Source: Streptomyces sp. SLBN-118
Lineage (GTDB): Bacteria > Actinomycetota > Actinomycetes > Streptomycetales > Streptomycetaceae
Reading direction: 5' to 3'
DNA length: 64,000 bases
NCBI RefSeq assembly: GCF_006715635.1
Contig: NZ_VFNP01000001.1
Coordinates: forward strand, 3,286,001 to 3,350,000
Shown: one piece after another, positions 17,925-27,604 of the stretch
Position numbering within the stretch: the stretch's first letter is position 1
Layout: every line of letters starts with the position of its first letter
The notes under the pieces: model-generated
Told to the model about the DNA's origin: nothing
Databases searched by the model: none
The model's input: only the letters and a program-made list of their open reading frames with translations
Translations under genes and position numbers: made by a program

Positions 17925-17955
17925 CGTGGGGTGACGGCAGTAGTTGACGGCAACG

Positions 17956-19261
17956 TCAGCGGACGAGGACGGTGAGCGGAGGTGGATCATCGCCGTCAGT
18001 TCGGTTGGCCTTGGTGTTCGTTATGCCGTATCGAGCGCGGTGCCGAGGGCGTCGATGGCGTCTCGCTGGAGGCGGAGTCGGACGTGGGCGTAGACGGTGG
18101 CGGTGACGCCGATGTGGGCGTGGCCGAGAAGTTCCTTGATCACGACGAGTTCGACGCCCTGTTCCAGGAGCAGCGTGGCGGTCGAGTGCCGGAGGTCGTG
18201 GAAGCGGATGCGGCGGAGGCCGGCCTTGCGGAGGAGCGTGGTGAAGGCGCGGGTGAGGTTGGTCGGGTCGAATCGATCCGCCCTGCACGGTGGTGAACAC
18301 GTGCCTGCTGTGCTGCCATGCGGTGCCTGCGGCCTTGCGCTCACGCTGCTGCTGTTCGTGGTGGAGCTTCAGCGATTGGACGCAGCGGGCGGGGAGGGCG
18401 ATGCGGCGTTCGGAGGCCCGCGTCTTGGTGGGCAGCGTGGTGAGTCCGCCCCTGCTGGTGCGCTGCAAGGTTCGGCGGACGGCAGCGGTGCCCGCGCTGA
18501 GGTCGAGGTCCCCCCAGCGCAGGCCGAGGAGTTCGCCCTTGCGGAGCCCAGTGTGAAGAGCGAGTTCGCCGCGTGCAACCGGTGTCCGCGCGTGGCCGCG
18601 AGGAACTGGCGGGCTTCGTCGGCGGTGAGGGGTTCGAAGCGCCGAGGCCGTGGGGTGCCGGTGCGGACGTTGCGGGCGATGTTGCGCGGGATCTCTTCCT
18701 CGCGGACGGCGTGCTCCAGGGCAGACTTGAGCACCGAGTGGATATAGGTGAGCGTCAGCGGGGAGAGCAGCTTGCGGCAGCACCGGCCACTGGCACAGCA
18801 GCGGGGCTCATCACGCCGGGCATCGATACCACGCGAGCAGCACTGGCAGGTGGCGCGGAGCTGATTGAGCCAGGTGCGGACGTCCTTGGCGGTGAGCTTG
18901 GTGAGCTTCTTCTTGCCCAGGCCGGGGATCAGGTACCGGTCGATGCAGGCGGCGTACCGCGTGTGAGTGTTCTCGCGGAGGTGGTGGACGGCGACGTTCT
19001 CCAGCCAGTACGTCAGGTACGCGGCCAGGCTGCCCTGCGCGGAGGGGACGGGAAGGCCGCGGTTGCTGGCGGCGATCTTCTCGGTGAGCTTGGCCAGGGC
19101 TTCCTTGCGGGTCGTGCCGTAGACGCGGATGCGCTTGCGGGTGTTGCCGGGGGCGAGGACGTATCCGGCGGCTTCCCAGCGGCTGTCCTTGCGCTGGTAG
19201 ACGGTTCCGTCGCCGTTGGCGCGGACGCGACGGGAGGCGGGGGTGTCGCGGGGCGTGGTCA
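17956..19261 (-). pseudogene. Tyrosine recombinase (AICE integrase), frameshifted
   Basis: This is a phage/pSAM2-type integrase broken into at least three frames. Frame one starts with GTG or ATG near 19261 and carries the arm-binding and SAM-like domains (YLTYWLENVAVHHLRENTHTRY, with a Cys-rich insert CQCCSRG). It shifts near 18570 into the frame with ALHTGLRKGELLGLRW (first catalytic Arg). It shifts again near 18285 into the frame with RFHDLRHSTATLL (H-x-x-R) and LLGHAHIGVTATVYAH (catalytic Tyr). A stop at 18021 ends that frame, but the family's usual acidic-Pro tail (GDDPPPL, then VLVR) lies in another frame ending at 17956, so a third shift is likely. The enzyme should be inactive unless these are sequencing errors. 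The excisionase is directly upstream. Confidence 0.8.
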
Positions 19262-19489
19262 TCAGGCGGCGGCTTCCTGTTCGAGGCGGGTGCGGATGAA
19301 GTCGGCCAGCGCGTGGGTGGGGATGCGGCGGGCGCGGCCGAGGGTGATCGAGGCGAGCTGTCGGGTGCGGAGCAGGTCGTAGACGGCGGAGCGGCCGAGC
19401 TGGAGGCGGGCCATGACCTGGGGCACCGTGAGCAGATCCAGCGCCGGTGCCGCCTCCGCGTGGAGGCCAGCGAGCGGGGGCGAGGTCAT
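19262..19489 (-). CDS. Excisionase-type helix-turn-helix protein
   Basis: A 75-aa MerR-like helix-turn-helix (HTH_17) protein with LTVPQVMARLQLGRSAVYDLLR, then LGRARRIPTHALADFI, the classic excisionase arrangement. It overlaps the Rep stop (TGATG at 19491-19487) and sits immediately before the integrase, the standard rep-xis-int order of pSAM2-like elements. It directs integrase toward excision by bending attachment-site DNA. The reading frame is intact even though the integrase is not. Confidence 0.82.
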   Translation of the reverse strand: MTSPPLAGLHAEAAPALDLLTVPQVMARLQLGRSAVYDLLRTRQLASITLGRARRIPTHALADFIRTRLEQEAAA

Positions 19490-20934
19490 CAACAGCCCCC
19501 TTCGGCCGCGAACTGCCGTTCCAGTTCCTTGCGGTGCCAGATGTGGGCTGCGAGGAGTGCGCCGCCGGGGCTGTAACCCGAGCCGAGGTAGTCCCAGCGA
19601 CCGACGACGAGCGTGGTCGTCGGGTCGGACTCGGGCAGTCCGGCGTGGGCGCGGGCCTGTTCGGTGCGCCAGGTGCGGCGGGCGTCGCGCAGTGCGCCGA
19701 GGGTGGTGGAGTAGCTGCGGGACTTGGTGGAGAAGTGGCCCCGGAAGCCGAGCATGTGGGCCCACTTCCGGAGCTTGAGGTGGGCGAACTCCGGCAGCTC
19801 TCCAAGCTCCCAGCAGGTGCGGATCATCTGCCGGACGTGCCGGGCGACGGGGAGCCGGGTCAGCGGGCGGGCCTGTCCGGTGCCGTCGCAGGCGGTGCAC
19901 GGGAGCGGCGTTCCGTGGGGCAGGAGGTTGGCGCCGCGTCCCTGGCAGGGGCGGCAGAGGAGGGTGTGGTCGAGGGTGCCGGAGGCGTTGGCGGACTTGG
20001 TGGCGTACTTCGCCACGTAGGCGGCTACGGCCTGGTCGGTGAGTTCGGCGTCGGTGCCGAAGGCGGCGATCTCGCGCACGTCGAGCTGTGTGCCCCAGGC
20101 GAGTTCGCGCTCCCCGATCGCGTCCGAGGCGACGGCCACTCGGACCCGGAGGGCTGCGGCTCGGATGGCGTCCGTGAGCACGGCGACGGTCGCCGACGGT
20201 GGCGGAGGCATGGCGTTGCCGTCGGGGCCGTCGAGCCGGATGACGGCGTGGAAGTGGACCAGGCCGCGCTTTTGGTACTCGGCGACCTTGGCGAAGGAGA
20301 TCCGCAGTACGGCGCGGGCGGCTTTCTGGGTGAGGCCGAGTCGGGCGGCGAGCTCGCGGCGCAGGTAGATGGTGAAGCGGGCCCACAAGGCTCCGGCGTG
20401 GGCGTTGAAGAGGACTGCGCCCGCGTAGTCGTACGTCGCCGGGTTCAGCGGCGTCCCGATCAGGGCGTCCGTGGGTTCGTGGAGCTTGCGGCAGCGGCAG
20501 GGCCGGATGTCGCCGCCGGGGGTGGTGAGGCGGTTGTGGACGGGGCCGAAGGACGGCGGGGTGAGAGTGGCGAAGACCCGGGGGTGGGTGCGGACGGTGT
20601 CGGGCACGGTCTTGCCGCCGGAGAGGCCGGCGCGGATGAGGTGGTAGGTGTCGGCGGCATAGATGCGGGAGCAGGTTGGGCAGCGGGAGGCGCGGCGGTT
20701 GCCGCAGGTGGTGAGCAGGCTGCCCGTCGGTTCGGCGGAGGATGTGTAGGAGCGCAGCACCTCACCCGTCGCGGAATCGACGGTGGTGGTGTGGCCGGTC
20801 AGGCGCACGGGCTCGCTGCAGCCGCCGAGGCGTTCGATCTGCTGTTGCGCGCGGTCGAAGTTGGGGTGGTTGACGAGGTGGAGCAGGTCCCGCACGGCGG
20901 GGCTTGCCACGTGGCGCAGGTCCAGGGTGACCAT
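19489..20934 (-). CDS. RepSA-like rolling-circle replication initiator
   Basis: About 481 aa from ATG at 20934. The frame is open further upstream, but the sequence before MVTLDLRHVAS has no Rep character. It is related to the Rep proteins of pSAM2-type actinomycete integrative elements. It contains a zinc-finger-like region CGNRRASRCPTC (about 80-91), a V-H-F-H motif (LVHFHAVIRLDG) that fits an HUH-type metal site, a C-terminal half with a second CRPCQGRG...CTACDGTG zinc pattern, and then a conserved MLGFRGHFSTKSR-like region. It would nick the element's double-strand origin after excision. AAGGGA lies about 12 bases upstream as a weak ribosome site. The frame is intact. Confidence 0.82.
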   Translation of the reverse strand: MVTLDLRHVASPAVRDLLHLVNHPNFDRAQQQIERLGGCSEPVRLTGHTTTVDSATGEVLRSYTSSAEPTGSLLTTCGNRRASRCPTCSRIYAADTYHLIRAGLSGGKTVPDTVRTHPRVFATLTPPSFGPVHNRLTTPGGDIRPCRCRKLHEPTDALIGTPLNPATYDYAGAVLFNAHAGALWARFTIYLRRELAARLGLTQKAARAVLRISFAKVAEYQKRGLVHFHAVIRLDGPDGNAMPPPPSATVAVLTDAIRAAALRVRVAVASDAIGERELAWGTQLDVREIAAFGTDAELTDQAVAAYVAKYATKSANASGTLDHTLLCRPCQGRGANLLPHGTPLPCTACDGTGQARPLTRLPVARHVRQMIRTCWELGELPEFAHLKLRKWAHMLGFRGHFSTKSRSYSTTLGALRDARRTWRTEQARAHAGLPESDPTTTLVVGRWDYLGSGYSPGGALLAAHIWHRKELERQFAAEGGC

Positions 20935-21085
20935 TCGGGGCGTGTCCCTTCTGTCGGGTGGGTGGCCCCGAGCAGCACCCAGCCAGGCAGGAAGGCGTGT
21001 TGGTGCTGCTCGGGGCATGACGAACCAGGCCCATCGGGTGGGCGTGGGGTGGAGCGAGGGTGACGCGGCCGGTGAGGGCCGGGGC

Positions 21086-21826
21086 TCAGAGCTGAGCAAG
21101 TGCGGCGGTGGCCACCGGCAGGGCGATGCCCATGCGCGCGCCCAGGTGGGCGGCGGTGATCGGGGTCCCGTGCTCGGCACGGTGGGTGTCCGCGATGCGC
21201 CGGGCCGCGTCCAGCAAGGCAGCGGGCAGGGCCGGGCCGGAGGCGGGTCGGGCCGTCGGGGTGATGGCGACGGGAGCCGGGGCGGTCGGCGGTTCCTCGG
21301 TCGGCGACGCGACAGTGACCGGGACGGGGGCCGGGGGTGCTGGTTCGGGTGCGGGTGCTTCGTCTGGCACCGGCGCGGAGATGGGAGTGGTGGCGTCCTC
21401 CAGATGCGGGGTGGGGGCCGTGGGGGTGTGGAACTGGGCGAGGAAGGCGGGGCCGACGTGGCCCCAGCCGAGGAGCAGGAGCGGGGCGACGGTGTCGAGG
21501 CAGGCCCGGCCGTAGCGCCCGGTCAGCAGTGGCTCGGCGGTGTTCAGGGCAAGGGTGAGCACCCCGCACAGGTGCGGCAGCCGCGTACCGGCCCGCAACT
21601 CCGCCTTGGACACCCCGCGCAGAGCCAGGAACCGCAGAGCGACCAGGAGACCGACGACGGACAGATCCACCATGGGGGCGATCAGCGGCGCGATCGGACG
21701 GGGGACGCCGAGCCGCAGGGCGAGCGCCCAGACGTTGCCGAAGGAGAAGACGAAGGCCAGGGCCGCGATGACTGCCATGACCACGGTCACGGTGCGCCGG
21801 GTGAACCGTCTCCGCCATGTTCTCAA
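21086..21826 (-). CDS. DUF2637 membrane protein (Spd-like transfer/spread protein)
   Basis: A 246-aa protein with four hydrophobic segments in the first ~125 residues (for example VVMAVIAALAFVFSFGNVWALAL and LIAPMVDLSVVGLLVALRFLAL), then a long Pro/Ala-rich linker, and a C-terminal ~50-residue winged-helix-like part (HRAEHGTPITAAHLGARMGI). DUF2637 proteins accompany the Tra/Rep genes of actinomycete integrative elements and are thought to help plasmid spread in mycelium. The start is uncertain: TTG at 21826 overlaps the preceding stop (TTGA), but GGGAGG abuts it directly. An internal GTG at 21790 is an alternative. Confidence 0.72.
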   Translation of the reverse strand: MRTWRRRFTRRTVTVVMAVIAALAFVFSFGNVWALALRLGVPRPIAPLIAPMVDLSVVGLLVALRFLALRGVSKAELRAGTRLPHLCGVLTLALNTAEPLLTGRYGRACLDTVAPLLLLGWGHVGPAFLAQFHTPTAPTPHLEDATTPISAPVPDEAPAPEPAPPAPVPVTVASPTEEPPTAPAPVAITPTARPASGPALPAALLDAARRIADTHRAEHGTPITAAHLGARMGIALPVATAALAQL

Positions 21827-22437
21827 CCTCCCTTCTGGTGTGGGCGTTTCGTCGTCGGGTCGCTGCCCTTGTACTCGCGGAAGTAACCGTGCGCCTCATC
21901 GATGATCAGGACCGTGAGCGGCCACTCCGGTGAGGGGCCGACGTGCCACAGGTTCTTCACACCCAGCACGTCCCGGATGGTCGCCGAGCGCCGCTTACGC
22001 AGCTCCACCAACCGCTTGAACAGCGCGTTCGCCTCATCGAGGTCATCCCCGCAGAACGCGAACATCCGCTTGACCAGGTCGGCGTAGTCGCCCTCCGAGG
22101 CCTGCGACACCTTGCCGTCCGCACCCGCGATCTGCACGGACGGAGACGGCGCGAAGTCGCAGACGAACTTGTTGACCCCCGAGGTCTTGCCCGCACCCGG
22201 GACGCCGGCCACCGTCACCCCGGGCACGTTGGCCAGGGACACCCACACCTTCGCGGCGTACTCATCGATGCCCGGCTCCCAGCGGGTCAGGTCCGTGGGC
22301 GGGCGGCGGGTGGGCCGGTGCGTGGTCGGCGTGGTCAGGGGGTCGGAGCGCACGCCCCGGATCACCACCCTGCCGGGGCCGTCCGGCAGCACGGACACCC
22401 GCGTGCACCGCCAGGCGTCCGCCAGTGTCGAGTCCCA
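21823..22437 (-). pseudogene. Truncated TraB/FtsK-like conjugative DNA translocase
   Basis: An internal fragment of an FtsK/SpoIIIE-type transfer protein. The Walker A motif is GVPGAGKTSG and the Walker B is LTVLIIDEAHGYF. The N-terminal part is missing. In-frame similarity begins near 22437 (a W-D-S-T-L-A-D-A-W stretch) exactly where the IS remnant ends, and no proper start codon remains. The C-terminal ~200 residues (sensor, arginine finger and gamma/recognition domain) are also missing, because the frame ends soon after Walker B. A normal relative pumps double-stranded element DNA between mycelia; this one cannot be functional. Confidence 0.78.
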
Positions 22438-23197: not shown

Positions 23198-24538
23198 TCA
23201 GGTGACCAGTGACGGTGGTGCGATCGTCCGTGCCCGGTCGTACAGGTCGAGCGCCGTCGCGTTCTTCAGATGAGGGCGCAAGAGGCCGAACATCGCCTTC
23301 ACGCGGTCGTCGGCGCGGCCGGACTGCACCTTGGGGTAGTCGTCGAGGGCCTGGTGCCAGGTGGCGCAGGCTGCTTCCAGGTGGCCGAGTTCCATCTGCC
23401 GCTCAGCCAACAGGCCACGACGGTGTACTCGCGTGCGCTGGTACACGCTGGGGCGAAGCCGGTCCGCTTGTTGCATGGCCTCGACGGCTCCGGCCTTGTC
23501 GTCGAGTTCGTAACGTACCTGGCTGACGTGGTAGTTGAGCGACGACGGGTCGTACGAGCCGAACGCCTTTCCCCGTGACTCGGCGCGGTCCATGGCCGCC
23601 TCAGCTTCCCGGATGTGGCGCAGCGCACCCGTACGGTCGCCGGTCTGCGCGGCGGCGTGCGCCTGCTGGCCGGCGAGGAAGGCCAGCATACGGGGGCCGG
23701 CTTTCGGGGAGGCGGCGGCAGCGGCGTCGGCCAGCTCCATGGCCTTCGCCCCATGACGGAGGTCGACTGCCTGGACGCTCATGCCCCGCAGGGTGGTGCA
23801 GTACGTCAGGTGGTCTTCGGCAGCGCCCGCCAGCTCCAGAGCCATGACGTAGTACCGCTGTGCGAGACCGTGCAGCCCTTCGTCCACGGCCATATAACCG
23901 GTCAGGTAGAGCAGGTCCGAGGCCGCTGACAGCATCGCCTTGCGAACATCCTCGGGCGCGTCGGCGCGCAGGTAGGAGGCCACGGTGTTGACCATGAACG
24001 AGGCCGCCATGGGACGTGCGTGACGGCCGCCGAACTCGTCGTCCAGCTCCGAGACACGCTCGGTCATGGCAACGACCATGTCCACTTCGTTCATGCCGAT
24101 GCGTGCTGTGCGGCCGGACCGAATGGCATCGGCACGCCCGACCACATCAGGCCAGCCGGGAATGGTGACGGCCACGGAGAACAGGCCGGCACCCAGGACA
24201 CTGCGGCGGGACGGGTCCATATCCAGCCTCCCCAGGTCGATCACCCCTTCCACGGTATCCGCAGCCGCGGAGGAGCGATCGCGTGGAACCGGCAGCCCGG
24301 CCTCGGCATGGGTGACGGGGCGGCTGAGGCGGCGGGAGAGAGCTTCGAGGATGCATCCGCGCACCGCACCGCGAGGGACGGTGCCTCCGAGCCAGTGACT
24401 CACTGCCGACTCGTCGTAGCGCAGGGGGATTCCGGTCTCAGTGCCGACGCGGTTCACCGCCCGCGCGAACTGGCGGTGAGTCCAGCGGCTCTCGGTGAGC
24501 AGGCGCCCGAGCGCCACGTTCGGTTCACGCTTGGCCAT
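23198..24538 (-). CDS. XRE-like regulator with TPR domain
   Basis: A 446-aa protein. Residues about 5-75 form a helix-turn-helix DNA-binding domain (LGRLLTESRWTHRQFARAVNRVG, then ESAVSHWLGGTVPR). After a linker, residues about 150-440 are an all-helical tetratricopeptide-like array (for example GLAQRYYVMALELAGAAED, then QQAHAAAQTGDRTGALRHIREAEAAMD). This is the architecture of Streptomyces peptide- or signal-sensing regulators. It faces the small ORFs and the peptide/asparagine-synthetase/methyltransferase operon across a 149-base divergent region, so it is the likely local regulator (inference). The start ATG at 24538 is at the beginning of the HTH. The frame is intact, unlike the genes on either side. 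Confidence 0.82.
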   Translation of the reverse strand: MAKREPNVALGRLLTESRWTHRQFARAVNRVGTETGIPLRYDESAVSHWLGGTVPRGAVRGCILEALSRRLSRPVTHAEAGLPVPRDRSSAAADTVEGVIDLGRLDMDPSRRSVLGAGLFSVAVTIPGWPDVVGRADAIRSGRTARIGMNEVDMVVAMTERVSELDDEFGGRHARPMAASFMVNTVASYLRADAPEDVRKAMLSAASDLLYLTGYMAVDEGLHGLAQRYYVMALELAGAAEDHLTYCTTLRGMSVQAVDLRHGAKAMELADAAAAASPKAGPRMLAFLAGQQAHAAAQTGDRTGALRHIREAEAAMDRAESRGKAFGSYDPSSLNYHVSQVRYELDDKAGAVEAMQQADRLRPSVYQRTRVHRRGLLAERQMELGHLEAACATWHQALDDYPKVQSGRADDRVKAMFGLLRPHLKNATALDLYDRARTIAPPSLVT

Positions 24539-24687: not shown

Positions 24688-24915
24688 ATGAGAAGCGAAG
24701 CACGGACCCGTCTGGCCCAGATGACCGAGGAGCAGGGCATGGACGGGGTGTTGAGGATCGACACCTACGAGGGCGCGGACCTGCCGCCGGGTTCGAACCG
24801 GTTCTCGCCGTGCCGCTGCCCGCAGCACCGCAGTGCCACGCCCGAGTACGGCGCGGAGAAGCTGAGCGTCGCAGTACGCGAGGCCAACCAGCGCAGCCGC
24901 GGAGAGCGGCTGTGA
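24688..24915 (+). CDS. Small conserved-type protein, 75 aa, unknown
   Basis: ATG at 24688 with GAAGGG about 7 bases upstream; it ends in a GTGA overlap with the next small ORF. The sequence is soluble and charged, with a central acidic stretch (VLRIDTYEGADLPPG) and a CRCPQH motif that could bind a metal. It is the first gene divergent from the TPR regulator, and the overlapping second ORF suggests a real operon. No family is recognised. Small proteins of this type are common in Streptomyces accessory regions. It could be an accessory factor for the downstream peptide genes (speculative). Confidence 0.6.
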   Translation: MRSEARTRLAQMTEEQGMDGVLRIDTYEGADLPPGSNRFSPCRCPQHRSATPEYGAEKLSVAVREANQRSRGERL

Positions 24916-25025
24916 ACCGGTTAGCCGCAGCCGTCGACCGCTACGCCGGACCACTCCTGATCACCACCATCTCGGGATCGGTCGGCTTCGTCCTGGGCGT
25001 CGCCGCCGCATCCACACCCGCCTGA
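24912..25025 (+). CDS. Small membrane peptide, 37 aa
   Basis: A GTG start overlaps the previous stop by four bases (GTGA). The product has a short amphipathic front (NRLAAAVDRYAG) and a single hydrophobic segment of about 20 residues (PLLITTISGSVGFVLGVAAA), consistent with one membrane helix. No homologue is recalled. Its existence is supported by the coupled start and by the hydrophobic pattern, not by motif. Confidence 0.5.
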   Translation: MNRLAAAVDRYAGPLLITTISGSVGFVLGVAAASTPA

Positions 25026-25096: not shown

Positions 25097-25140
25097 CCCG
25101 TCCGGCTGCCTTCTTCGCAAGGGTCCGGCAGCCGGACGGG
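25097..25140 (+). promoter_or_regulatory. Strong hairpin upstream of the peptide gene
   Basis: CCCGTCCGGCTGCC (25097-25110) pairs perfectly with GGCAGCCGGACGGG (25127-25140) over 14 bases with a 16-base loop. It lies 55 bases before the 39-aa peptide gene and after the two small ORFs. It may terminate the small-ORF transcript or form a leader structure for the peptide mRNA. There is no T-run. Confidence 0.6.
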
Positions 25141-25195
25141 TCCAACTCCGCAGCAGTCGCCGCGGAGTCCACTGAAAACCGTAAGGGAGAAAACG

Positions 25196-25315
25196 ATGAA
25201 CGTGGACGAGCTGTTCACCGGCGACCTGATCACTGGCGTCCCGGCCGTCGAGGCCGCGCTGCTCGACAAGATGCCGGGCGGTGGCGACAACAACGGCGAC
25301 CACTGCAGCAAGTGA
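25196..25315 (+). CDS. Putative RiPP precursor peptide, 39 aa
   Basis: ATG at 25196 has an excellent ribosome site (AAGGGAGA, spacing about 5). The product splits into a leader-like acidic, helical front (MNVDELFTGDLI, ending about AALLDKM) and a compositionally different C-terminus, PGGGDNNGDHCSK, rich in Gly, Asp and Asn with a single Cys. It sits between two perfect hairpins and directly before an asparagine-synthetase-like enzyme and a methyltransferase, the layout expected for a ribosomally made, modified peptide. No RRE protein, leader protease or transporter gene is adjacent. It does not match a lasso precursor, because the tail after a possible Gly-Asp ring would be only about four residues. 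The peptide class is unknown. Confidence 0.68.
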   Translation: MNVDELFTGDLITGVPAVEAALLDKMPGGGDNNGDHCSK

Positions 25316-25331
25316 TCCAGGGCTGACGCCG

Positions 25332-25365
25332 GGCGGGGCGGGGCCGTTCGCGGCCCCGCCCCGCC
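25332..25365 (+). terminator. Intercistronic hairpin (TTCG tetraloop) after peptide gene
   Basis: A perfect 15-base G+C stem (GGCGGGGCGGGGCCG at 25332-25346, CGGCCCCGCCCCGCC at 25351-25365) is closed by a TTCG loop, 16 bases after the peptide stop and 23 bases before the asparagine-synthetase-like gene. Such a structure usually acts as a partial terminator or RNA stabiliser, raising precursor mRNA relative to enzyme mRNA. There is no T-run. Confidence 0.7.
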
Positions 25366-25388
25366 GCACGACATCGGAAAGGGACGAC

Positions 25389-26861
25389 ATGCTGTCGATG
25401 CGTCTGCGCCTGGCTGATCTCCAGGAGCCCAAGTGGAGATCGCAGGGCGGCCGTTGGATCAACGGCGAGAGCTGGATCGAGCCCGTAAACGTGTCCACTC
25501 TGGTCATGGAGGTCGCCGACGACCAAGCGCCGCGCGTACGGGTCCGGGTGAAGGAGTGCAAGCGGGACGAGGCCGACTTCGTCGAACTCACCATGGAGCC
25601 CGGACAAGCCCGCCTGGCGGCGGGCGTCTTCGGCACAGCCCCGCTCTATCTGACAGGGAAGGCCGAGGAGCTGCACGCCTCGTGGGACCTGACACTACTG
25701 CGACCGTATATACAGGCCGATCGCCTGGTGCCGCGCGTTGTCGCTCGAACGCTGACGAGGCAGCACCGCTACACGTCCGAGACGCTCTTCGAAGGCGTCT
25801 ACCGCCTCACCGAACGGGCAGCGGCCACGTTTACCCCCTCGGGACTCAGCATCCACTACCCCGACCCCGCCGAACACGTACTTGAGCCACGCCGGCTGCG
25901 TGCTGGCGTTGATCCACTCGCCGCTCTGGACGAGTTGCTGACCGACGTAATACGCCAGGCGCCGACGGCAACCGGATGCGTGGGCGTCGAACTGTCCGGC
26001 GGCGCGGACTCCGGGAACGTCGCCCTGGCCATCAAGGCGGCCCGCTTCCTCGAGGTGTACAGCTTCGGCCTGCTGGTGGGAGGAAGCACCGGCAGGCAAC
26101 AGAGCGAGCGGCGCCGGACCCTTGTGGAGCACTGCGGCTTCCGAGACACGGCCACCCCCGCCATGCAGCACCCACCCTTCTGCGCTGGAGGCGTACGCGC
26201 TCTGCGCAAGCCGCACGACCCGGCGGGAGCCTTCTACCAGGAGGCGTTCGACGTAGTACGCGAGCAGGCAGCCGCCCGGCGGTGCGAGATCATGTTCACC
26301 GGCAGCGGCGGCGACGAGATCAACGCCCACCACTCAAGGACACAGGCCGAACTGCCGACACCCGAACCCGTACCGTGGCTAGGAGTCAAGGCAGCCCGAG
26401 CACTCGCCGAGGTGAACGAGCATCTGGCGCCCATCCCGGTACTGCCCGTACCGACCCTGATGGCGTTCGGGATGCACAACCCCGGATTCCTCCGGGCCGG
26501 AATCTGGCCGGTGAGCCCGCTCGCGCACCCGCGGATCGTGCGGTTCATGGAGCAGCTACCGCACGAACACAAGCGCGGCAAAGCGCTGTTCCGCGAACGG
26601 ATCAGACGGGCCGGGGTACCCGAGTGGGTAGCCGCGCCGGCCGAACCGGAGAACTTCCTGGCCGTCCTGGAGAAGGGCCTGCGGTCCTACGGTCTGCCCG
26701 TACTGGACGACATGCTGAAAGAGTCCATCCTGGTGGACCTCGGCTACGTTGATGGGAAGGCTCTCGCCAAGGCGCGGAGGGACGCCGACGCTGCGCCGGG
26801 CGTCCCCGACCTGCTGTGCGATGTGCTCGCCCTGGAAGTCGGACTGCGAAGCCTCATGTGA
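25389..26861 (+). CDS. Asparagine-synthetase-like ATP-dependent amide/lactam-forming enzyme
   Basis: About 490 aa from ATG at 25389, with AAAGGGA 5 bases upstream; the longer open frame from 25281 would run through the hairpin. The C-terminal half is an AsnB-type ATP-pyrophosphatase domain: ELSGGADSGNVAL is the PP-loop (203-208) and FTGSGGDEINAHH (305-310) is the second conserved loop. The N-terminal ~170 residues resemble the glutaminase fold position but have no Cys at residue 2, so the enzyme cannot use glutamine in the usual way. This pattern occurs in lasso cyclases and beta-lactam synthetases, which adenylate a carboxylate and close an amide. The likely substrate is the peptide encoded just upstream (inference). 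Its stop overlaps the methyltransferase start. Confidence 0.83.
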   Translation: MLSMRLRLADLQEPKWRSQGGRWINGESWIEPVNVSTLVMEVADDQAPRVRVRVKECKRDEADFVELTMEPGQARLAAGVFGTAPLYLTGKAEELHASWDLTLLRPYIQADRLVPRVVARTLTRQHRYTSETLFEGVYRLTERAAATFTPSGLSIHYPDPAEHVLEPRRLRAGVDPLAALDELLTDVIRQAPTATGCVGVELSGGADSGNVALAIKAARFLEVYSFGLLVGGSTGRQQSERRRTLVEHCGFRDTATPAMQHPPFCAGGVRALRKPHDPAGAFYQEAFDVVREQAAARRCEIMFTGSGGDEINAHHSRTQAELPTPEPVPWLGVKAARALAEVNEHLAPIPVLPVPTLMAFGMHNPGFLRAGIWPVSPLAHPRIVRFMEQLPHEHKRGKALFRERIRRAGVPEWVAAPAEPENFLAVLEKGLRSYGLPVLDDMLKESILVDLGYVDGKALAKARRDADAAPGVPDLLCDVLALEVGLRSLM

Positions 26862-27604
26862 CCAGCCCCGACACGGAAGCCGAGCACGTGGAAGCCACCA
26901 ACCTCCTGTACCGCGATCCGGCACTCTACGACGTGGTCCAGTCCGACAGCACGAGCGCCGGAATGTGCCAGACCCTGATCGAACTGCACAGGCCGGACGC
27001 CCGGACCCTGGTCGACTTCGGATGCGGTACCGGCCGTGACCTGGAGATCCTCGCCAAGCGCTTCGAGTGCATCGGCGTGGACCTTCAGCCCGGCATGGTC
27101 GACTACGCCCACCAAGCCCGGCCCGAGTTGGACATCCGCACCGGCGACATGCGCACCGCACGACTCGGCAGCCGCATGGACGTGGTGACCTGCATGGGCA
27201 ACAGCCTCGCCTACGTGCACGACAACGAGGCGATCGGCCAGGTCTTCGCCACCTTCGCCGCCCACGCCCGGCCGGGCGCGCTGCTCGTGCTGTGTTCCCC
27301 CGTTGCCCCGATCACCCGGACCGTGCCGACCACAGCCACGGTGGACACCCCGACGGGACCCGCGACGGTCACCATCCGCCACACGTGGGACCTGCGGACC
27401 CAGATCAACACCATGCACCGGCACTGGAGTCTCCCCTCGGGCGACGAGGCCCGAGACGAGATCCGCCGGCGCGTCCTGTTCCCCCGCGAGCTGGAACGCT
27501 ACGCGGAGGGCGCCGGCTTCGAGGTCCTGGACATGCTCGACGGCACAGGGACAGGGCTTACCGGCCCCACCGCATACACGGTGGCCCGACAAACTCCGCG
27601 GTGA
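26858..27604 (+). CDS. Class I SAM-dependent methyltransferase
   Basis: 248 aa from GTG at 26858, overlapping the previous stop (GTGA), which indicates coupled translation; a GTG at 26888 is an alternative. SAM motif I is LVDFGCGTGRDLE (51-63), followed by an acidic residue at GVDLQPGMV (motif II) and by VVTCMGNSLAYV (post-motif II). The C-terminal substrate-binding strands include TVTIRHTWDL. The rest is typical of small-molecule or peptide O/N-methyltransferases. As the last gene of the peptide operon it probably methylates the peptide or its new linkage. Aspartimide-type RiPPs also use a methyltransferase, but this is not recognisably a PIMT. Confidence 0.82.
   Translation: MTSPDTEAEHVEATNLLYRDPALYDVVQSDSTSAGMCQTLIELHRPDARTLVDFGCGTGRDLEILAKRFECIGVDLQPGMVDYAHQARPELDIRTGDMRTARLGSRMDVVTCMGNSLAYVHDNEAIGQVFATFAAHARPGALLVLCSPVAPITRTVPTTATVDTPTGPATVTIRHTWDLRTQINTMHRHWSLPSGDEARDEIRRRVLFPRELERYAEGAGFEVLDMLDGTGTGLTGPTAYTVARQTPR

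Follow-up and report, generated by a model that had tools for sequence, protein, structure and literature searches.

What does a 39-residue open reading frame (ORF) make together with the asparagine-synthetase-like (AsnB-like) gene that follows it? The question is posed by a locus of Streptomyces sp. SLBN-118, within a stretch of 64,000 nucleotides (contig NZ_VFNP01000001.1, positions 3,286,001 to 3,350,000; the window) that is chromosomal and has Streptomyces as its nearest named relatives. On the + strand the cassette runs from the ORF through the 490-residue AsnB-like gene to a methyltransferase gene. An earlier note on this DNA had proposed a ribosomally synthesized and post-translationally modified peptide (RiPP) carrying an Asp/Lys/Gly isopeptide, an imide or an amide. 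Comparison among relatives bears the note out in large part and narrows these options to one residue pair, Lys25 and Asp31, for which we infer the chemistry. Our favored reading, held at a probability of roughly 0.6, is that in this RiPP family an AsnB-fold synthetase joins the Lys amine to the activated Asp side chain, which would close a seven-residue macrolactam.

Precursor peptide and Lys-Asp spacing

The 39-residue ORF is preceded by a GGGAG ribosome-binding sequence and is a conserved coding sequence under constraint, with a ratio of nonsynonymous to synonymous polymorphism (pN/pS) of 0.31 among 18 unique intact sequences, that of the window included. It is intact and in the same position in 27/31 close loci (L001-L031, window locus included); of the other four, L013 has a frameshift, L022 meets a contig edge, and L027 and L030 match the enzyme only in truncated form. 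The final 16 residues, DKMPGGGDNNGDHCSK, are identical across the intact window-clade copies printed, and a sister group whose enzyme is 62-65% identical has a near-identical peptide without the final Lys. The earlier note had staked its proposal on conservation of the ORF, which is kept in close loci, the wider family, plasmids and other genera. The sequences thus bear out a RiPP-like pair conserved across genomes, a small precursor ORF beside a modifying enzyme. The variable core and conserved leader that had been expected did not appear: the core is invariant within the window clade, and the leader varies too across clades. None of the peptides scanned matches a Pfam or NCBIfam family. One peptide (L020) contains the segment GDLIT three times in its leader.

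Peptides of different clades share a Lys followed six residues later by an Asp (K-x5-D). The pair falls within the last 26 residues of 20/21 representative peptides, against 2.7 expected from residue shuffling, and is found in all 21 when the whole peptide is considered; any other Lys/Asp spacing occurs in at most 8 of the 21. With one peptide per clade the count is 10/11 (1.5 expected). In the window peptide the pair is Lys25/Asp31, favored because the same spacing recurs in otherwise dissimilar peptides. An alignment of 23 actinomycete and 9 proteobacterial peptides, anchored on K-x5-D, has no other invariant column. The tail beyond the Asp has 6-10 residues, with a single exception, an annotated ORF with 26. 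It was claimed at first that the core could not form a normal lasso tail; the sequence does not support this, since eight residues follow Asp31. An Asp also stands at +12 from the Lys in 19/23 actinomycete peptides, the window peptide not among them; together with a double Lys found in some peptides, it might allow a second bond.

AsnB-like enzyme and proposed mechanism

The enzyme matches PF00733 at E 1e-7. As the earlier note had it, it carries the motifs SGGADS and GSGGDE and, because its N-terminus reads MLSM, lacks the glutaminase Cys2. Cys2 occurs in 0/22 aligned members of the enzyme family. A predicted structure gives the whole chain a two-domain AsnB/beta-lactam-synthetase fold (predicted local distance difference test, pLDDT, 93). 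The closest solved structure by profile is the beta-lactam synthetase 1jgt (E 6.7e-10), and a fold search puts the same group first. A true asparagine synthase was rejected on the missing Cys2, the peptide gene partner and low scores, the window protein reaching 35 bits against a cut-off of 267 for TIGR01536.

Since the enzymes lack the glutaminase Cys and are kin to intramolecular amide formers, and since the Lys/Asp spacing is fixed in otherwise dissimilar peptides, a Lys-Asp isopeptide is the best explanation. The enzyme would bind the N-terminal leader through a motif around LFTG...VP and use ATP to adenylate the Asp31 side chain at its carboxylate. Positioned by the enzyme, the Lys25 side-chain amine would then attack the activated Asp31 with release of AMP. 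The resulting isopeptide would close a seven-residue ring with loss of 18 Da and leave an eight-residue tail. The methyltransferase would subsequently N-methylate the peptide, or in other clades a GNAT would acetylate it. Export and leader trimming could fall to the cell's general machinery or, where a clade has one, to a linked ABC transporter.

Carbapenam and beta-lactam synthetases (1q15, 1jgt) are among the closest solved relatives and use the AsnB fold for an intramolecular amide, but they act on small molecules and are only 14-18% identical to the present enzyme; they are not known to be accompanied by a peptide gene. A different reaction has been described for TsrC, ScdTA and PesC, AsnB-type enzymes that likewise act on ribosomal peptides. 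Asparagine-synthetase-like enzymes turn peptide C-termini into amides or nitriles, and ammonia is accepted by PesC (PMC13060819). By analogy, free ammonia might here convert the Asp or the C-terminus to an amide or nitrile. These enzymes act with ammonia on the C-terminal carboxylate, whereas the present family has no Cys2 and its C-terminal residues differ widely among clades. Amidation would also leave the fixed Lys-Asp spacing unexplained, and we regard it as improbable.

Distribution of the peptide-enzyme pair

Enzymes related to that of the window occur in at least 43/392 genomes of the genus (E up to 1e-15), 14/150 of the family (E up to 1e-30), 13/394 of the class (7/137 genera; profile search, E up to 1e-30) and 2/396 of the phylum (single-sequence search, E up to 1e-20), whole-genome tallies that are lower bounds because few candidates were scored per genome. 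More distant relatives, 21-38% identical and mostly with a small upstream ORF, come from Streptomycetaceae, other Actinomycetes, Rhizobium, Mesorhizobium, Bradyrhizobium and Xanthomonas. Three further relatives (P0102, P0113 and P0120; 44-52% identical) belong to Carbonactinospora, Longimycelium and Myceligenerans.

In a wider Streptomycetaceae sample of 40 loci, ten of them from the window clade, a small ORF with K-x5-D lies upstream in 33 (32 by the strict pattern, plus L083 on looser inspection). The window enzyme has 48 matches in 72,556 plasmid records, and two distant relatives have 54 apiece. The plasmid loci read were picked to be diverse and come from Streptomyces, Xanthomonas, Mesorhizobium, Rhizobium and Bradyrhizobium; 16/16 have a K-x5-D ORF upstream, a biased count because in unannotated loci the near ORF with a start signal and K-x5-D was the one picked; in L116-L121 and L129 the ORF came from the record's gene table, independently of the motif. 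Other Actinomycete genera yielded the ORF in 5/8 loci (L134, L135, L137, L138 and L141) in a scan that kept only motif-bearing ORFs. Like the known peptides, these ORFs have a GSSD or GDSD core and a leader motif of LF or VF; of the three misses, one (L132) has masked DNA upstream and two (L142 and L143) match only part of the enzyme. Peptide-enzyme pairs thus occur in two phyla, in soil- and plant-associated bacteria.

Macrolactam or lasso-type ring

The use of the motif in these two selections weighs against the Lys-Asp macrolactam, as do several other points. Seven of the 40 wider loci (L088, L093, L094, L098, L104, L113 and L114) have no K-x5-D peptide; several of them have partial or broken enzyme genes. 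At L098, with two ABC transporter genes upstream, a related leader frame (VFAGEPVLAVP) occurs without the Lys-Asp pair. K-x5-D is invariant in the 32-peptide alignment by construction, the alignment being anchored on it. The position of a catalytic Tyr of beta-lactam synthetase is not conserved in the enzyme family when aligned to 1jgt. The bond itself is a proposal drawn from conservation. Two more points belong to the main rival, a lasso-type bond. A ring of seven with a tail of mostly 6-10 residues also fits a ring formed through the Lys alpha-amine, and 17/22 enzyme members match the albusnodin/ikarugamycin cyclase model NF033561, if weakly (the five listed reach 24-38 bits; cut-off 300); slightly more (18/22) match the asparagine synthase model TIGR01536.

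In a lasso-type product an unlinked protease would cut before the conserved Lys, whose alpha-amine would be joined to the Asp to give a seven-residue ring and a threaded tail. Seven-residue lasso rings are known, and the sizes of ring and tail are plausible. Lasso cyclases (NF033535 and NF033561) belong to the same superfamily and are likewise AsnB-type enzymes that form an amide on a ribosomal peptide with ATP; NF033535 is matched weakly by 10/22 members. The GNAT partners in some clusters of the present family recall the albusnodin cluster, which carries an acetyltransferase and whose product is acetylated at Lys10 (PMC9266682).

The scores, however, are far under the cut-offs (for NF033535, 16-26 bits where listed against 525). 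PF13471, the lasso-type (B2-type) leader peptidase, has no match anywhere in 19/41 host genomes (98-100% complete as listed), and in the remaining 22 its hits lie 200 kb or more from the cassette or on a different contig. Such a peptidase is therefore not required, and the lack of an adjacent lasso-type protease reported before extends from the locus to the 41 host genomes. Lasso peptides have Thr at the penultimate leader position, with Ile treated as an exception (PMC10368454). If the core started at Lys, that position (-2) would hold Tyr in 14/23 and Thr in 1/23 actinomycete peptides, and Thr in 0/9 proteobacterial ones. The proposed ring would start at a Lys and not at a freed N-terminal residue, and a ring through the alpha-amine would not itself need Lys, yet the Lys is constant. 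We consider the lasso-type bond unlikely.

Partner genes

The methyltransferase, a class I enzyme (PF13649, E 2e-13), was rightly described at the outset as coupled to the AsnB-like gene and S-adenosylmethionine (SAM)-dependent: its GTG start overlaps the AsnB-like stop, and an annotated homologous plasmid record has the identical 4-nt overlap. Its best solved relatives are 3pfg (E 1e-17), which N,N-dimethylates an amino sugar, and 7wzg (E 4e-11), the N-terminal methyltransferase of cypemycin, resemblances that suggest it is probably an N-methyltransferase. Across 70 loci examined, it lies beside the enzyme in 25/25 of the window clade and was found in 0/45 others. On a 53-row enzyme tree the methyltransferase label requires one change (100/100 support); the placement of the proteobacterial rows on this tree is unsure because long branches join them.

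Activation of an Asp together with a methyltransferase recalls aspartimide pathways. The product might then be an aspartimide or other imide at the Asp, and the conserved Lys and Asp would serve for recognition. The methyltransferase, for its part, resembles N-methyltransferases and was found in one clade only; such a product seems very unlikely.

In the 70-locus set a GNAT is linked in 18/18 actinomycete loci with a double-Lys peptide and in 0/31 with a readable single-Lys peptide; it also stands at L093, in the double-Lys clade, where no peptide was found. Five rhizobial plasmid loci have one as well. A strict rule that a second Lys means a linked GNAT was rejected; it held for the readable actinomycete peptides of the 70 loci and is broken by L138, which combines a single Lys with a GNAT, so the link is a tendency only. 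ABC transporters adjoin the cassette in another, separate clade, and a phosphotransferase is added in Mesorhizobium, Rhizobium and one of the Bradyrhizobium loci.

Genes for LuxI adjoin some rhizobial loci, and these copies may be under quorum control. On plasmid pRL10 of Rhizobium johnstonii 3841 (L129, 2655-9221), a LuxI-type gene, the peptide gene, the AsnB-like gene and nifHDK stand in a row; this AsnB-like gene is annotated shorter than its relatives.

Relation to known peptide families

We take this to be a RiPP family built on an AsnB-fold enzyme and lacking those defining features of lasso peptides and of graspetides that were tested. From the former it differs in scores far below the cyclase cut-offs and in having no linked PF13471 peptidase. 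Graspetides offer the closer chemical parallel: corallotide has a Lys9-Asp13 isopeptide (PMC13097080), and conservation suggests a side-chain Lys-Asp macrolactam in a ribosomal peptide here too. Graspetides, in contrast, are made by ATP-grasp ligases through an acyl-phosphate, whereas the present enzyme has the AsnB fold, presumably adenylates and would close the ring from i to i+6; no ATP-grasp match was found among the window genes scanned.

A broader proposal, which we hold at barely better than even odds, is of a RiPP class in two phyla whose AsnB-fold synthetase would join the side chains of Lys(i) and Asp(i+6) without prior leader removal, a separate evolutionary route to graspetide-type rings. 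Decoration would differ by clade (N-methyl-, acetyl- or phosphotransferase), with control by helix-turn-helix/tetratricopeptide-repeat (HTH/TPR) regulators in Streptomyces.

The product of the gene set may represent a new type of cyclic peptide among natural products. Titles and abstract openings yielded no published description of the family, in a search mostly outside subscription journals; the portion seen of the decRiPPter main text (PMC7794033) does not contain the word asparagine, and that of PMC13352647 has nothing on the family. Amidases and a nitrile synthetase of the asparagine-synthetase-like type are known from RiPP clusters, and about 300 uncharacterized enzymes of this type lie near RiPP elements (PMC13060819). 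The present family, perhaps included in that number, offers one group of this type with a testable reaction.

The proposal, if correct, adds one more occasion on which asparagine-synthetase-type enzymes were enlisted to build peptide macrocycles, through side chains and not the N-terminus; with no N-terminal ring to form, no dedicated leader peptidase would be needed first. The two-gene cassette and its simple rule, K-x5-D near the C-terminus, would also be a compact tool for isopeptide rings that can be mined at once. The rhizobial copies, one of them beside nifHDK and a LuxI gene, raise the question of symbiotic signaling.

Candidate RNA structures

The 73-nt spacer between peptide and enzyme genes has a minimum free energy of -47.9 kcal/mol (z -3.4), and z is at most -2 in 38/45 spacers (100 single-base shuffles each). 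A G+C-rich stem-loop at this place is usual in streptomycete loci. In the window it is probably an attenuator favoring precursor expression, which would hold precursor mRNA in excess of enzyme mRNA. As a universal mark of the family it was rejected: it is unseen in the folds of L147-L149, and in 7/45 spacers z exceeds -2.

The segment 25097-25168, which precedes the peptide gene, is strongly conserved and foldable. Two-sided changes affect only 2/44 pairs among 17 close relatives, so the conservation is no proof of an RNA structure. A two-hairpin layout with different stem letters was seen by eye in 6/8 sister-clade loci tried (L111 differs; in L112 it was not found), and Rfam gave sub-threshold matches only for this region. 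A mixed-clade alignment was discarded for misaligning the first stem. Such an upstream region would suit a small ORF that is no substrate at all, for example a regulatory leader peptide beside an enzyme acting on a small molecule. The pairing of ORF and enzyme, however, persists across two phyla even though the regulators and partners differ, and the coding constraint in the window clade and the recurring residue spacing speak for a substrate; we give the non-substrate ORF very little credence.

Locus and neighboring genes

Table 1. Features of the cassette and its flanks (window coordinates)
Feature	Position	Strand	Basis
NsdA-family HTH/TPR-like regulator, 446 aa, divergent	23198..24538	-	NCBIfam NF053720, 444 bits vs cut-off 75
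Possible structured 5' leader, two G+C-rich hairpins	25097..25168	+	Consensus fold, 17 close relatives
Precursor peptide gene, 39 aa, MNVDELFTGDLITGVPAVEAALLDKMPGGGDNNGDHCSK	25196..25315	+	Coding constraint; upstream ORF in most relatives
Proposed ring segment Lys25-Met-Pro-Gly-Gly-Gly-Asp31	25268..25288	+	K-x5-D recurrence
Stem-loop in the peptide-enzyme spacer, 15-bp stem	25332..25365	+	Spacer folding energy
AsnB-fold macrolactam synthetase candidate, 490 aa, without Cys2	25389..26861	+	PF00733
SAM methyltransferase, probably N-methyltransferase, 248 aa	26858..27604	+	PF13649; solved relatives

An NsdA-family homologue lies 5' of the cassette in 24/25 window-clade loci and is present in 38/70 loci overall, one of which (L096) has it downstream. 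No RiPP recognition element (RRE; B1, PqqD-like) partner appeared among the window genes in general scans, none of which was aimed at RRE, and no tRNA gene was found within the 64-kb window. The interval between regulator and peptide genes (24688-25024) holds a 75-aa ORF and then a 37-aa ORF with a membrane-like stretch; a few close relatives have related ORFs.

Remains of a pSAM2-kind integrative element occupy 17944-22398, with a RepSA replication protein (E 1e-153), a DUF2637 protein, an FtsK-like fragment and an integrase whose halves lie in two reading frames. A relaxase-like family (cluster c6, named by eye) is found near the cassette in L019, L084, L089, L109 and L112, as if the cassette travels on mobile DNA.

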